From: Leeuwenhoekiella aequorea | Lineage (GTDB): Bacteria > Bacteroidota > Bacteroidia > Flavobacteriales > Flavobacteriaceae | Length of the DNA: 64,000 nucleotides | Assembly: GCF_004104375.1 (NCBI RefSeq) | Contig: NZ_QOVM01000001.1 | Span: 558,001-622,000 of the forward strand | Direction of reading: 5' to 3' | Part shown: in pieces, positions 31,173 through 46,070 of the stretch | Layout: each line of letters opens with the position of its first letter | Position numbering within the stretch: the stretch's first letter is position 1 | Made by a program: the position numbers and the translations under genes | The notes under the pieces: model-generated | Database searches by the model: none | What the model saw: the letters and a program-made list of their open reading frames with translations, nothing else | Told to the model about the DNA's origin: nothing

Positions 31173-31264
31173 GGGGCGTTACGGCTAGCGCCGTCAGGCT
31201 TTTAGCTTAATCTTTTTTAGAATTAATTAATTCTAAAAAAGGATATCGCTTCAATCCTTAACGC
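31173..31264. repeat. REP-like palindromic intergenic element
   Basis: About 92 bp between exbD and the TonB-like gene, starting GGGGCGTTA and ending CCTTAACGC (GCGTTA/TAACGC inverted ends). It contains a small hairpin ACGGC-TAGC-GCCGT (31181-31194) and a perfect 30-bp palindrome (31212-31241, half arm CTTTTTTAGAATTAA). The end sequences recall the dispersed GGGCGTT...TAACGC repeats I remember from Flavobacteriaceae genomes, where they act as terminator-like REP elements. Only one copy is seen here. Confidence 0.6.
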
Positions 31265-31316
31265 AAACTAGAAACTCCTTTTTAAATCATATACTGCACT
31301 TAAATAGATCGCCATA

Positions 31317-33430: not shown

Positions 33431-33505
33431 GGGCAATTAGCTCAGTTGGTTCAGAGCACCTCGTTTACACCGAGGGGGTCGGGGGTTCGAATCCCTCATT
33501 GCCCA
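33431..33505 (+). tRNA. tRNA-Val (anticodon TAC), copy 1
   Basis: 75-nt cloverleaf. Acceptor stem GGGCAAT pairs with ATTGCCC before discriminator A; anticodon stem CCTCG/CGAGG encloses loop TTTACAC with anticodon TAC; T arm has GGTTCGAATCC. CCA is not encoded. Followed at once by a terminator. Confidence 0.96.
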
Positions 33506-33597: not shown

Positions 33598-33672
33598 GGG
33601 CAATTAGCTCAGTTGGTTCAGAGCACCTCGTTTACACCGAGGGGGTCGGGGGTTCGAATCCCTCATTGCCCA
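33598..33672 (+). tRNA. tRNA-Val (anticodon TAC), copy 2
   Basis: Identical over all 75 nt to the copy at 33431-33505, 92 nt downstream. No equally strong promoter is visible; AAATATG-like sequence precedes it, so it may depend on readthrough or on a weak promoter. Confidence 0.96.
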
Positions 33673-40743: not shown

Positions 40744-41640
40744 TTAGTTACTAGTGAGTTGTTGAAAAAGTTGTTCTAGAGATCTATTTTTCTTAACGAG
40801 CTGTAAAATTTTTAGTCCGTTATCATGGGCAAAATCAAATATTGCGGGCCGCATATCTATTGAAGATGAAAAGGTAATTTCATAAACAAAACCTCTTGTG
40901 TTTTTGACCGCTGTAGCTTTATTGAATTGCATTAGGGCAATTTCTTCGATACGATAATCAAATTCTACTTCAATTATTTGTTCATTTTCATCTCGCAGAT
41001 TCTCCATCTTTTTATCTGCTACGATTTTGCCTTTATTAATTATAATGACACGATCACATATCGCTTCAACCTCTTGCATAATATGAGTTGAAAGTAGAAC
41101 AGTCTTAGTCTTACCTATATTTTTTATGAGCGCTCTAATTTCTTTAAGTTGATTAGGATCTAAGCCAGTTGTGGGTTCATCCAGAATAAGAACTTCAGGA
41201 TCATTAATGAGCGCAGCTGCAAGCCCTACGCGTTGTTTGTATCCTTTACTTAAGTGCTTTATTTTCTTAGTCATTTCTGGCGTTAATCCGGTAAGTGTTA
41301 TGACTTCATTAATGCGCGATAGGGAAGCACTATTCAATTCTGCCTGAAACTTGAGATATTCTCTCACATACATTTCAGGATAAAGGGGATTGCTTTCGGC
41401 TAAATATCCTATGCTTTTTTGTACATCAAGACTTTGTGTTTGAGTTGAGAAGTTATTAACAAGAGCTTCACCAGATGTAGGTTTTAAGTAGGTTGTCAAG
41501 ATTTTCATCAGGGTGCTTTTTCCGGCACCATTAGGACCTAAAAATCCGGTAATCTCTCCTTTTCGAATAGTAAAACTAATAGAATCAAGGGCAATTTGCT
41601 TTCCGTAATTTTTTGTGATAGTAGTTACAGAGATGGACAT
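40744..41640 (-). CDS. gldA: Gliding-motility ABC ATPase GldA
   Basis: Protein of 298 aa. Walker A GPNGAGKST near residue 35-43, signature LSKGYKQRVGLAAAL, Walker B VLILDEPTTGLDPNQ, H-loop STHIMQEVEAI, and a C-terminal domain ending LEQLFQQLTSN as in GldA. In Flavobacterium, GldA works with GldF and GldG and is needed for gliding; gldFG are not in this window. GldB and GldC are encoded at 59.8-61.1 kb. Confidence 0.88.
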   Translation of the reverse strand: MSISVTTITKNYGKQIALDSISFTIRKGEITGFLGPNGAGKSTLMKILTTYLKPTSGEALVNNFSTQTQSLDVQKSIGYLAESNPLYPEMYVREYLKFQAELNSASLSRINEVITLTGLTPEMTKKIKHLSKGYKQRVGLAAALINDPEVLILDEPTTGLDPNQLKEIRALIKNIGKTKTVLLSTHIMQEVEAICDRVIIINKGKIVADKKMENLRDENEQIIEVEFDYRIEEIALMQFNKATAVKNTRGFVYEITFSSSIDMRPAIFDFAHDNGLKILQLVKKNRSLEQLFQQLTSN

Positions 41641-41916
41641 AGGTTACACATATTAGTTTGCTTGAGGGGCTAAAATTAAACAAATAGCAGACAGGCATCT
41701 CTTTCTAAATGCTTAAAATATCATTGTTAATGTAAAATGGATGAACTAAAAGACTTCTACAAAATGTTATCTTTAAAAAATGGTTGCTTTTAAAAGGTCT
41801 TATTTAATTTCGTTTAAAGAAAGTAGCTATTTAATTGAATATCTGTAAAAGTTATTTGTATTTAAGTGGGTTCCTAATTATTTAATTACTTTAGCAACGT
41901 AAAACAGAAACAATAC
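41641..41916. other. Gene-free region upstream of pheA leader
   Basis: Together with the leader, a 443-nt interval between divergent gldA and pheA. AT-rich. A TTTG near 41853 and TACTTTAG near 41889 resemble promoter elements, but their spacing (about 28 nt) is too long for a confident call. No other structure seen. Confidence 0.5.
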
Positions 41917-41988
41917 ATGTTAAACGTACCTTATTTTTATAGCCGTTATTACTTCTTTTTCTTTATTAGAGAAACGGGACCGCTATAA
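41917..41988 (+). CDS. Phe/Tyr-rich leader peptide of the aromatic operon
   Basis: ATG to TAA encoding 23 residues. It contains PYFY (5-8) and then YYFFFF (11-16): five Phe and four Tyr among 23, with the last codons (TGPL) lying inside the 5' arm of the antiterminator. It sits 95 nt before pheA. Ribosome stalling at the Tyr/Phe block when charged tRNA-Phe or tRNA-Tyr is scarce would leave the antiterminator arm free. This is the arrangement of classical attenuation leader peptides (pheL, trpL). Confidence 0.85.
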   Translation: MLNVPYFYSRYYFFFFIRETGPL

Positions 41989-42020
41989 GCATATAGTATT
42001 GATATATCATATAGGTCCCG
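41975..42020 (+). promoter_or_regulatory. Antiterminator stem of the aromatic attenuator
   Basis: CGGGACC (41975-41981) pairs with GGTCCCG (42014-42020), 7 bp. The 3' arm shares TCCCG with the terminator stem, so the two structures exclude each other. The 5' arm lies at the end of the leader ORF, seven bases before its stop codon, where a ribosome that finishes the leader would cover it. Confidence 0.8.
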
Positions 42021-42046
42021 ATTTAAATTAAATCGGGATTTTTTTT
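42016..42046 (+). terminator. Attenuator terminator before pheA
   Basis: TCCCGATTTA (42016-42025) and TAAATCGGGA (42029-42038) form a 10-bp stem, followed by eight T residues (42039-42046). It ends 37 nt before the pheA start, so it can act only as a premature terminator. Confidence 0.93.
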
Positions 42047-42083
42047 GTTATAAACTGAACGTAAATATTTTAATCAAGCGCAC

Positions 42084-42905
42084 GTGATACATAAAGTAGC
42101 CATACAAGGAATAAAAGGATCCTTTCATCATAAAGTAGCTCAGGATTTTTTTAGTGAAGATGTTGAGGTTGTGGCTTGCCGCAATTTTCAAGATGTGGTA
42201 AACAGTTTATTAAGTGGCGAAAGTACAGACGCTGTAATGGCTATTGAAAATTCTATTGCTGGAAGTATCATCCCTAATTATGCGTTAATAGACCATCATA
42301 ATTTAAACATTGAAGGGGAGCATTATTTGCCTATAAGTCAAAATTTAATGGCGCTTCCCGGCCAGTCTTTAGATGCTATTAAAGAAGTATGGTCTCACCC
42401 TATGGCTCTTTTACAGTGTAAAGACTTTTTTAAAGATAAAAGTGAAATACGTCTTGTTGAAGATGATGATACCGCAGGAGCAGCAAAGCGCATTGCAGAT
42501 GGGAAAATATTAAATGTAGCAGCTATAGCCAGTGCGACTGCAGCAAAAATCTACGGCCTGGAGGTTTTAGCTGAAAATATGCAAACTATAAAAGATAATG
42601 CAACTCGCTTTTTTATTTTGAACAATAACGGGCGTACAGATACAGATGTACCAGACAAAGCTTCAGTTAAATTTTTGACAGATCACAAACGCGGTAGTCT
42701 TGCAGCGGTACTTAATGTAATGAGTGATTGTAAATTAAACCTTACTAAAATACAATCGTTACCTGTTATCGAGACGCCTTGGGTTTACTCATTTTTTGTA
42801 GATGTTACGTTTAAGAATTACGAAGATTTTGACAAAGCAAAAAAATTATTAGCTATCATGACTGCAGAGTTTAAAGTACTTGGCGAATACAAAAATCGAA
42901 AATAA
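42084..42905 (+). CDS. pheA: Prephenate dehydratase
   Basis: Protein of 273 aa converting prephenate to phenylpyruvate. The periplasmic-binding-like catalytic domain has the Thr-Arg-Phe motif in NATRFFIL; the C-terminal ACT domain starts at GSLAAVLNVMSDCKLNLTKIQSLP. The usual ACT phenylalanine-binding ESRP motif is QSLP here. The start is GTG at 42084. No chorismate mutase domain; that activity is fused to DAHP synthase three genes on. Stop and next start share one base. Expression is probably attenuated by the leader at 41917-42046. Confidence 0.94.
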   Translation: MIHKVAIQGIKGSFHHKVAQDFFSEDVEVVACRNFQDVVNSLLSGESTDAVMAIENSIAGSIIPNYALIDHHNLNIEGEHYLPISQNLMALPGQSLDAIKEVWSHPMALLQCKDFFKDKSEIRLVEDDDTAGAAKRIADGKILNVAAIASATAAKIYGLEVLAENMQTIKDNATRFFILNNNGRTDTDVPDKASVKFLTDHKRGSLAAVLNVMSDCKLNLTKIQSLPVIETPWVYSFFVDVTFKNYEDFDKAKKLLAIMTAEFKVLGEYKNRK

Positions 42906-44056
42906 TGATAATAGAATCGGCAAAACGTTTGCAACAGACGTCAGAATATTATTTTTCTCGTAAGCTTAAAGAGGTAAGAGCACTTGCAGCTGCTGGGAAA
43001 CCCATCATAAATATGGGTGTGGGAAGTCCAGATTTACCACCACCACCTCAAGTAATCGACGCTCTTACGCGCTCATTAATAGACGGTCCTGCTCACCAGT
43101 ATCAAAGTTATAAGGGATTGCCTCAACTTACACAGGCAATGAGCGATTTTTATAATAATAAATATGAAGTTCAATTAGATCCTGAAACCGAAATCTTGCC
43201 TTTAATGGGTTCTAAGGAAGGTATCATGCATATTAGTATGGCTTTTCTTAATCAAGGAGATCAGGTTTTAATACCTAATCCTGGTTACCCAACTTATTCT
43301 TCAGTGACTAATTTGCTAGAGGCAGAACCTGTGTATTATAATCTAGATGCGTCGCATAATTGGATGCCTAATTATGATGAGTTAGAATCGCTTGATCTAA
43401 ACAAAGTAAAGCTTATGTGGGTAAATTATCCGCATATGCCTACCGGAGCAAAGGCAACAACAGAGGACTTTGAGCAGTTAATTGCCTTTGCGACAAAAAA
43501 CAATATACTACTGGTAAATGACAACCCGTATAGTTTTATCCTTAATGAAAATCCCCAAAGTATATTGAGTATCCTCGGAGCCAAAGAGGTAGCATTAGAG
43601 CTTAATTCGTTAAGTAAATCATTTAATATGTCTGGGTGGCGTGTAGGAATGTTGCTTGGAGCAGAAGATTATATAAATGCGGTGCTTACAGTTAAAAGCA
43701 ATATGGATAGTGGTATGTTCTACGGAATACAGAAAGGAGCAGCTGCAGTATTAACTGAAGGAACAAGCTGGTTTAATGAACTTAATTTGGTTTATAAGTC
43801 ACGAAGAGAACTTATGTGGCAACTGGCAGATGTTTTGGGATGTATTTATGATAAAGAAGCTGCCGGAATGTTTATTTGGGCAAAATTACCAGAAGGCTCT
43901 CTGGACGCAGAAGCTTTTATAGATGATATTTTAATCGAAAAAAGCATTTTTATAACACCGGGAACCATTTTTGGTTCTCAAGGAGCTGGGTATATTCGAT
44001 TTTCACTTTGTGTTTCCGAAGATAAAATAAGAGAGGCAATTTCAAGGTTTAAATAG
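42905..44056 (+). CDS. Class I/II PLP aminotransferase, aromatic operon
   Basis: Protein of 383 aa. VGSPDLPPPPQV near the N-terminus, PNPGYPTYSS, NYPHMPTGA, DNPYSF and the PLP-binding Lys in LNSLSKSFNMSGWRVGM are typical of the AspC/DapL-like fold-type I group. Because it sits between pheA and tyrA it most likely transaminates phenylpyruvate, 4-hydroxyphenylpyruvate or prephenate. Linked to pheA by TAATG overlap. Confidence 0.9.
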   Translation: MIIESAKRLQQTSEYYFSRKLKEVRALAAAGKPIINMGVGSPDLPPPPQVIDALTRSLIDGPAHQYQSYKGLPQLTQAMSDFYNNKYEVQLDPETEILPLMGSKEGIMHISMAFLNQGDQVLIPNPGYPTYSSVTNLLEAEPVYYNLDASHNWMPNYDELESLDLNKVKLMWVNYPHMPTGAKATTEDFEQLIAFATKNNILLVNDNPYSFILNENPQSILSILGAKEVALELNSLSKSFNMSGWRVGMLLGAEDYINAVLTVKSNMDSGMFYGIQKGAAAVLTEGTSWFNELNLVYKSRRELMWQLADVLGCIYDKEAAGMFIWAKLPEGSLDAEAFIDDILIEKSIFITPGTIFGSQGAGYIRFSLCVSEDKIREAISRFK

Positions 44057-44089: not shown

Positions 44090-44950
44090 TTGGAAGATTT
44101 CAAAAATATTTTCGTTTTAGGTATAGGTCTTATTGGCGGTTCTATGGCGCGTGATTTAAAACGTGTTTTGCCTGAAAGTACACTATATGGGATAGACAGT
44201 AGTGAGAATCATCTTAGCGAAGCTGTAGGTTTAGGAGTTATTGATCACTCTTCAAGATTTGAAGCGTTGAGTCAAGCAGATTTAGTTATATTATCTATAC
44301 CTGTAGATCAGGCAAATTTATTTTTACCTCCCGTTTTAGATGCAATTTCAGAGCATGCTCTTGTTATCGATGTGGGATCTACAAAAGGTAGCGTATGTGA
44401 TGCTGTGCGTAACCATCCTAAACGTGCTAATTTTTTAGCAGCACATCCTATTGCCGGTACAGAGTTTTCTGGACCTACCGCAGCCATTGAATATTTGTTT
44501 AAAGACAAGACAATGATTCTTTGCGAAGTAGAAGATACAGATACTGAATTATTAAAAAAGGCTATGCAATTGTTTGAAGTTTTAGAGATGCGTATTCGCT
44601 ATATGAATCCGCATTCTCATGATAAGCATATTGCTTATGTCTCACACCTATCACACATAAGTAGTTTTATGTTAGGGAAAACTGTGATCGAAAAAGAAAA
44701 AAACGAGAAAGATATTTTTGATATGGCAGGTAGTGGATTTGCTTCGACCGTACGCCTGGCAAAAAGTAATCCCGCCACTTGGACTCCTATTTTTAAGGAA
44801 AATAAGGCTAATGTGTTAGAAAGCCTTACTGAATATATAACCAATTTAACTCATTTCAAAAATGTTCTCGAAGCAGATGACTACGAAGAAGTTTATAATG
44901 AAATGGAAAATACAAACCACATAAAATCAATACTCAAAGGATTATCGTAA
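44090..44950 (+). CDS. tyrA: Prephenate dehydrogenase
   Basis: Protein of 286 aa; NAD-binding GIGLIGGSMARDL (about 11-23), DVGSTKG, AHPIAGTEFSGP and the HxxYVSHLSHISSF segment (catalytic His region) are those of TyrA. Converts prephenate or arogenate to the tyrosine precursor. TTG start at 44090. Third gene of the operon. Confidence 0.93.
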   Translation: MEDFKNIFVLGIGLIGGSMARDLKRVLPESTLYGIDSSENHLSEAVGLGVIDHSSRFEALSQADLVILSIPVDQANLFLPPVLDAISEHALVIDVGSTKGSVCDAVRNHPKRANFLAAHPIAGTEFSGPTAAIEYLFKDKTMILCEVEDTDTELLKKAMQLFEVLEMRIRYMNPHSHDKHIAYVSHLSHISSFMLGKTVIEKEKNEKDIFDMAGSGFASTVRLAKSNPATWTPIFKENKANVLESLTEYITNLTHFKNVLEADDYEEVYNEMENTNHIKSILKGLS

Positions 44951-44978: not shown

Positions 44979-46070
44979 ATGGAAAACAAAAAAGAACTTA
45001 GAAACTGGTTAGATGCATTCAATCTGGATCATCCTCTGGTAATCGCAGGACCTTGTAGCGCAGAAACTGAAGAGCAAGTGCTTAAAATAGCACACGAATT
45101 AAAAGACACTGACGCAACAGTATTTAGAGCAGGTATCTGGAAACCACGTACGCGTCCAGGAATGTTTGAAGGAGTTGGAGCTTTAGGTTTAAAATGGCTT
45201 CAAAAGGCTAAGGAAGAAACAGGAATGCTTACTACTACTGAAGTGGCAAATCCTAACCACGTAGAGTTAGCGCTTAAGCACGATGTAGATATTCTTTGGA
45301 TAGGTGCACGTACTACCGTTTCTCCATTTAACATTCAGGAAATAGCTGAAGCATTAAAGGGTACAGATAAAGTTGTTCTTATTAAAAATCCTGTTAACCC
45401 AGATTTAGCGTTATGGTTAGGTGCCGTTGAGCGCTTTTACACTCAGGATGTTAAAAATTTAGGTGTTATACATAGAGGTTTTTCTACTTACGAGAAAACC
45501 CGTTATAGAAATAATCCAGAATGGCAAGTAGCTGTTGATCTTCAAGATAAATTTCCAGATTTACCTTTAATATTAGATCCATCGCATATTGCGGGACGTC
45601 GTGATATTATATTTGATTTGTGCCAAACAGGACTTGATCTTAATTACGATGGTATTATGGTAGAGACGCATTACGATCCTGATAATGCGTGGAGTGATGC
45701 TGCGCAACAAATTACTCCTTCTACGCTAGTTCAAATTATGAAAGATTTGAAAATACGTAAAGAAGAAGGTACTGCAGCAGAGTTTAATAACAAATTAAAT
45801 ACACTACGTACTCAAATAGATGTAGTAGATCATCAGCTTATTGAAAGTCTGGGTAAACGTATGAAAATTGCAGATTCTATAGGAGAGCTTAAAACGCAAA
45901 ACAATGTTGCGATTTTACAGTCTAAACGTTGGAACGAGATTTTAGGAGCAATGATCTTAGAAGGTGAGAAACACAATTTAAGCGAAGAATTTATTCTGCG
46001 TGTATTTAAAGCGATTCACCAGGAATCAATTAACCACCAGAAGAAAATCTCAAGAATGGAGGAAGCATAG
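44979..46070 (+). CDS. aroG: DAHP synthase - chorismate mutase fusion
   Basis: Protein of 363 aa. Residues 1 to about 255 are a type I-beta DAHP synthase (IAGPCSAETEEQ, FRAGIWKPRTRPGMFEGVG, LIKNPVNPD, LILDPSHIAGRRD, GIMVETHYDPDNAWSD). Residues from about 268 are an AroQ chorismate mutase (LNTLRTQIDVVDHQLIESLGKRMKIADSIGELK...FILRVFKAIHQESI). It catalyses the first shikimate step and the first committed Phe/Tyr step. C-terminal AroQ fusions of this type are known in Bacteroidota and give feedback control through the mutase domain. Last gene of the operon; terminator at 46089. Confidence 0.95.
   Translation: MENKKELRNWLDAFNLDHPLVIAGPCSAETEEQVLKIAHELKDTDATVFRAGIWKPRTRPGMFEGVGALGLKWLQKAKEETGMLTTTEVANPNHVELALKHDVDILWIGARTTVSPFNIQEIAEALKGTDKVVLIKNPVNPDLALWLGAVERFYTQDVKNLGVIHRGFSTYEKTRYRNNPEWQVAVDLQDKFPDLPLILDPSHIAGRRDIIFDLCQTGLDLNYDGIMVETHYDPDNAWSDAAQQITPSTLVQIMKDLKIRKEEGTAAEFNNKLNTLRTQIDVVDHQLIESLGKRMKIADSIGELKTQNNVAILQSKRWNEILGAMILEGEKHNLSEEFILRVFKAIHQESINHQKKISRMEEA

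Follow-up and report, generated by a model that had tools for sequence, protein, structure and literature searches.

A probable leader-peptide attenuator of phenylalanine and tyrosine synthesis in Leeuwenhoekiella aequorea and its counterparts across the Bacteroidia

Leader-peptide attenuation is generally portrayed as a mechanism of the Proteobacteria. Its origin has been placed in the Gammaproteobacteria, with few subsequent transfers (PMC3766115), and beyond the Proteobacteria the only cases known to another survey were those of Actinobacteria and of some Firmicutes (PMC2965389). Both surveys locate such attenuators chiefly in Proteobacteria and Actinobacteria. For the Bacteroidota, a B. 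thetaiotaomicron map mentions short ORFs reminiscent of leader peptides (PMC7366714), and a 2021 transcriptome study of Flavobacterium psychrophilum finds strong indications that amino-acid operons are subject to attenuation by leader peptides, together with 5' elements of pheA and hisG that are conserved in other Flavobacteriaceae and have no Rfam hit (PMC9723704). The initial annotation of the locus analyzed here held that no such leader had been described before pheA in Flavobacteriaceae; that statement has to be withdrawn in view of this passing mention, and the F. psychrophilum pheA element is very probably the same as the one reported here. The passages in which that paper touches on these elements give neither the peptide nor the alternative pairing, the covariation or the distribution beyond the family that are presented below. 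No account of the pairing evidence, the class-wide range or the serial form turned up in the literature searched, and the latter two appear to be unpublished; Bacteroidota cases may be included in Lopatovskaya 2010 (cited in PMC4833913).

The pheA leader resembles the pheA, pheST, trp and his attenuators of Gammaproteobacteria (E. coli type, PMC3766115) in its short ORF rich in codons for the product, its overlapping antiterminator, its intrinsic terminator and the biosynthetic operon downstream. Unlike them, it contains codons for both Phe and Tyr, in keeping with an operon that makes both amino acids, and the 5' arm of its antiterminator occupies the final codons of the ORF or follows closely behind the stop; also, no consistent pause hairpin and no sequence family match were found for it.

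Leader ORF and operon context

The window, that is, the whole 64-kb stretch of DNA analyzed, belongs to a 3.46 Mb genome whose nearest named relative, as judged by PheA, is Leeuwenhoekiella polynyae (Flavobacteriaceae, 82% identity). On its forward strand it carries pheA, encoding prephenate dehydratase from a GTG start (42084-42905; Pfam PF00800, E 7.9e-56), followed by genes for a class I/II aminotransferase (42905-44056; PF00155), the prephenate dehydrogenase TyrA (44090-44950; PF02153 and PF20463) and a DAHP synthase-chorismate mutase fusion (44979-46070; PF00793 and PF01817). All four are enzymes of Phe and Tyr synthesis, and their order is preserved in 79 of 80 named loci. The gene upstream of pheA, encoding an ABC-transporter ATPase, is divergent (40744-41640, reverse strand).

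Between the two lies a leader ORF of 23 codons, MLNVPYFYSRYYFFFFIRETGPL (41917-41988, forward strand), which agrees base for base with the initial annotation. It reads ATG TTA AAC GTA CCT, then TAT TTT TAT, then AGC CGT, then TAT TAC TTC TTT TTC TTT, and ends ATT AGA GAA ACG GGA CCG CTA TAA. Nine of its 23 codons thus specify the products of the Phe/Tyr operon ahead of which it stands, and six of these are consecutive, forming the putative control codons YYFFFF (codons 11-16, 41947-41964). Among 12 genus members, variable leader sites fall on codon positions 1, 2 and 3 in the ratio 6/11/18, and TTT/TTC and TAT/TAC swap with each other while the aromatic run is preserved, which argues that the ORF is under coding constraint. 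The run is likewise kept in a set of 55 non-redundant loci, with a median of 6 codons. Phe and Tyr are both present in every one of these 55 leaders. Trp codons occur in 28 of them, consistent with DAHP synthase feeding Trp as well, and the window's leader has none. As its codons suggest, the window's leader is best read as sensing tRNA-Phe and tRNA-Tyr jointly.

An 8-nt element resembling the Bacteroidota -7 box, TACTTTAG (41887-41894, forward strand), lies approximately 23-30 nt 5' of the leader ATG; the promoter consensus for this phylum has been given as TAnnTTTG (PMC9723704). Of the 55 non-redundant loci, 43 have a TAnnTT[TA]G motif no farther than 60 nt from the leader start, where 5.2 would be expected; it lies approximately 26 nt before the start. 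The position of the element just before the leader start indicates that no other ORF precedes the leader on the transcript. No -33 box at consensus spacing was found by eye, and the promoter assignment is limited to the -7 element.

Given that the genome is AT-rich and that Phe and Tyr codons are rich in T, the ORF could in principle be a chance run, and the terminator behind it merely the end of the upstream transcription unit; runs of Phe/Tyr codons do occur 35 times genome-wide. However, since the upstream gene is divergent, the terminator can serve the pheA transcript only. Moreover, among the 30 runs inspected, a short ORF with a terminator was found only at the pheA leader. Across the 64-kb window, this is the single site where a short ORF holds an uninterrupted stretch of at least six Phe/Tyr codons and is followed by a strong terminator, and none of 60 dinucleotide-shuffled windows contained such a combination. 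Together with the conserved coding, pairing and covariation found across the class, these data already refute an accidental origin, the probability of which we consider negligible.

Mutually exclusive hairpins and the proposed switch

An intrinsic terminator sits between the leader ORF and the first structural gene, pheA (42014-42046, forward strand). It folds into a hairpin with a 3-nt loop followed by a T8 tract (42039-42046); the T8 is as first annotated, and the stem, originally given as 10 bp, is slightly longer (11-13 bp). The antiterminator was also correctly delimited at both arms. Its 5' arm, CGGGACC (41975-41981), lies within leader codons 20-22, so that the end of the ORF overlaps it as claimed, and its 3' arm, GGTCCCG (42014-42020), falls inside the 5' arm of the terminator, which makes the two hairpins mutually exclusive.

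The region 41917-42060 folds more stably than shuffled versions of itself (z = -3.5). The predicted antiterminator hairpin reaches -15.8 kcal/mol when its arm is free and the RNA has been made only through the loop. When the arm is masked, the terminator alone forms (-14.6 kcal/mol), and in the full RNA at equilibrium the terminator wins (-18.3 kcal/mol). As the terminator is favored at equilibrium, the switch would have to be kinetic, as it is in known attenuators. A synonymous-shuffle test for a pause hairpin (segment 1:2) gave a weak overall signal, with 3 of 55 loci individually significant and no consistent support.

Conservation of both helices was assessed in an alignment of 43 diverse sequences. 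In the antiterminator, 88% of cells are paired, 36 cells are compensatory and 6 of 7 pairs have changed on both sides; in the terminator, 91.8% of cells are paired and 45 are compensatory, and changes on both sides are seen at 9 of 9 pairs. The compensatory-cell counts of both helices were reached in none of 500 shuffles, and pairing fell to 24-53% when the partners were slid by 1-3 columns. The antiterminator was tested separately on the 55 non-redundant loci, since its arm had been picked by search. Its strength in the real spacers exceeded that in shuffled ones (combined p 1e-44), and each locus's own terminator arm paired better than arms taken from other loci (Wilcoxon p 1e-10). The arm sets differ by group, being GGGAC/GTCCC/GGGAC in one and GAGAC/GTCTC/GAGAC in another. 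Covariation and the preference for the own arm together imply that bases co-vary at three places, namely the leader codons and the 5' and 3' arms of the terminator. The comparison indicates that the antiterminator and terminator helices are both under selection.

The geometry of the leader is also kept across loci. The antiterminator arm starts 6-21 nt past the final aromatic codon, and its end lies anywhere from 24 nt upstream to 13 nt downstream of the stop, suggesting that a ribosome finishing the ORF would hide it completely or for the most part. A shorter ORF (RFYFSNSFYFFFRK, followed directly by the stop) is seen in some Flavobacterium; there the arm, ending 7-9 nt beyond the stop, would still lie under the ribosome.

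The attenuation that had been proposed from the window is consistent with the coding, the pairing, the geometry and the gene context alike. The locus is very likely a ribosome-mediated leader-peptide transcription attenuator through which the operon would respond to charged tRNA-Phe and tRNA-Tyr. Transcription would start approximately 15-20 nt 5' of the leader ATG, and a ribosome would follow RNA polymerase into the leader. The front edge of a ribosome lies approximately 12 nt from the first base of the A site. Should Phe- or Tyr-tRNA be scarce, the ribosome would halt in the YYFFFF run; with codon 16 in the A site its front edge would be at or before approximately 41973, short of the arm at 41975, and earlier stalls would leave more room. 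The free CGGGACC would then pair with GGTCCCG once this has been made and before the 3' arm of the terminator exists, resulting in readthrough. With both tRNAs plentiful, the ribosome at the stop codon would cover CGGGACC and leave GGTCCCG to the terminator. As this attenuator would work without Shine-Dalgarno-led initiation, it lends itself well to studying how transcription and translation are coupled in Bacteroidota.

Two other ways of operating the hairpins have to be weighed. Alternative hairpins are a frequent output of riboswitches, and it could be a riboswitch, a T-box or an RNA-binding protein that selects between them, the ORF being secondary. We judge this very improbable: within the leader, no match to an Rfam family attains the gathering score (Phe_leader, His_leader, Trp_leader and their like included), the approximately 15-20 nt 5' of the ORF leave no space for an aptamer, and the inter-arm spacer is constant neither in sequence nor in length. 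Neither a T-box core nor a known aptamer was found at the Rfam gathering score 5' of the terminator, where the best weak matches are far under the cut-off; those to PyrG_leader (30 bits against a cut-off of 65), NsiR1 and sok were dismissed as chance.

Alternatively, the nascent peptide itself could sense free Phe/Tyr in the manner of TnaC, instead of the ribosome being slowed at codons for scarce tRNAs. A short conserved peptide ahead of a metabolic operon would be in keeping with such an arrest peptide, and so would the conservation of its C-terminal residues within the genus, were it not that this conservation tracks the antiterminator bases. Between genera the aromatic composition alone is kept, and both the flanks and the C-terminus vary freely. 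The logic would also be inverted, since stalling on free Phe/Tyr would induce their biosynthesis. An arrest peptide is therefore a highly unlikely explanation, and slow decoding of the aromatic run is retained as the preferred one.

Distribution and serial modules

In order to survey the element, regions upstream of pheA were collected from whole genomes and named contigs, giving 144 distinct Flavobacteriaceae loci. In 143 of these, pheA is preceded by the complete set of Phe/Tyr-rich ORF, terminator and antiterminator. Loss of the leader in close relatives, which would have spoken against the original proposal, was not encountered: all 12 congeners examined keep the ORF and both helices. At the sole exception in the family (L028) the operon is dispersed, pheA and the DAHP synthase gene being approximately 950 kb apart. 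Two further candidates for loss (L025 and L136) were rejected, since the full element is present there and has been displaced approximately 300-500 nt upstream by later insertions, consisting of repeats in one of them. In L025 (850-1500; one genome, G025), repeated units of approximately 120 bp with hairpins such as CCCGCC...GGCGGG lie between the attenuator and pheA.

Other families of Flavobacteriales also carry the element (L140-L146 and L148-L150), and it is absent from the reduced-genome group f16 and from group f5, whose PheA is mostly distant. Among Bacteroidia outside Flavobacteriales it precedes 37 of 53 pheA genes, and denser sampling recovered it in 27 of 28 loci of family f23 and 22 of 27 of family f19. 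About 20 families are positive. Where pheA directly follows aroA (L216, L220) the element is absent, as it is from all 33 pheA loci outside the class Bacteroidia. The predicted element thus precedes this operon in most of the Bacteroidia that were examined and is not special to Flavobacteriaceae.

Some loci harbor a pair of consecutive full modules, both equipped with a Phe/Tyr ORF, an antiterminator and a terminator of their own. This arrangement was counted in 7 of 28 f23 loci and 10 of 27 f19 loci (17 of 55 together) with a stricter detector, which was reserved for the serial counts since it misses 31 of 79 Flavobacteriaceae leaders, those with AT-rich arms. The same detector called no module in 165 shuffled regions or in 28 leaderless controls (27 from outside the class), and never two modules per locus in the 79 named Flavobacteriaceae-type loci. 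One serial locus occurs in another family (L305, in f80); the serial loci listed are L306, L307, L294, L305, L369-L377 and L391-L412, from f19, f23 and once f80. In the tandem attenuators of Salmonella mgtCBR, the two ORFs answer to different signals. Like the mgtCBR leader described in PMC3641672, the leaders with serial pheA switches hold two short attenuator ORFs; they differ from it in that, in f19 and f23, both ORFs are Phe/Tyr-rich. The effect of adding a second attenuator could be studied on these naturally occurring pairs. We consider it evenly balanced whether the Phe/Tyr attenuator is ancestral in Bacteroidia, having arisen apart from the proteobacterial ones, with the series in f19 and f23 giving a steeper or lower-leak response than one attenuator alone.

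Other leaders in the genus and minor features of the window

Short ORFs of comparable design precede other amino-acid operons of the genus. Upstream of hisG, an ORF with a His run (MKRTALHHHHFYSRTQAR in the window's genome) is followed by a terminator in 12 of 13 genomes, and upstream of trpE a WWW ORF (MKNKALNIWWWISQQ) is followed by a terminator in 12 of 12. The occurrence of a covariation-backed attenuator in about 20 families of Bacteroidia, together with these His and Trp leaders of the genus, suggests that attenuation may be a principal control of amino-acid synthesis in the class. No Phe leader was found before pheS in the genus.

At the hisG leader loci (L235, G000:C2, and L230-L242 generally) a candidate antiterminator, CTCAAGCG/CGTTTGAG, accompanies the terminator. 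At those of trpE (L252, G000:C8, and L243-L254 generally), the post-ORF sequence GTCGTGA can pair with TCACGAC of the terminator. In several genus members, short Ile/Val-rich ORFs such as MRKQLISVRSIIVIKLF, with a CCTTCCG hairpin, were observed at ilvD (L259-L267); they are not clearly present in the window's genome.

Elsewhere in the window, a Flavo-1 RNA (RF01705) was recognized at 31188-31273 on the reverse strand with 55 bits, and two tRNA genes with identical scores lie 92 nt apart on the forward strand (33431-33505 and 33598-33672), probably representing a duplicated pair.
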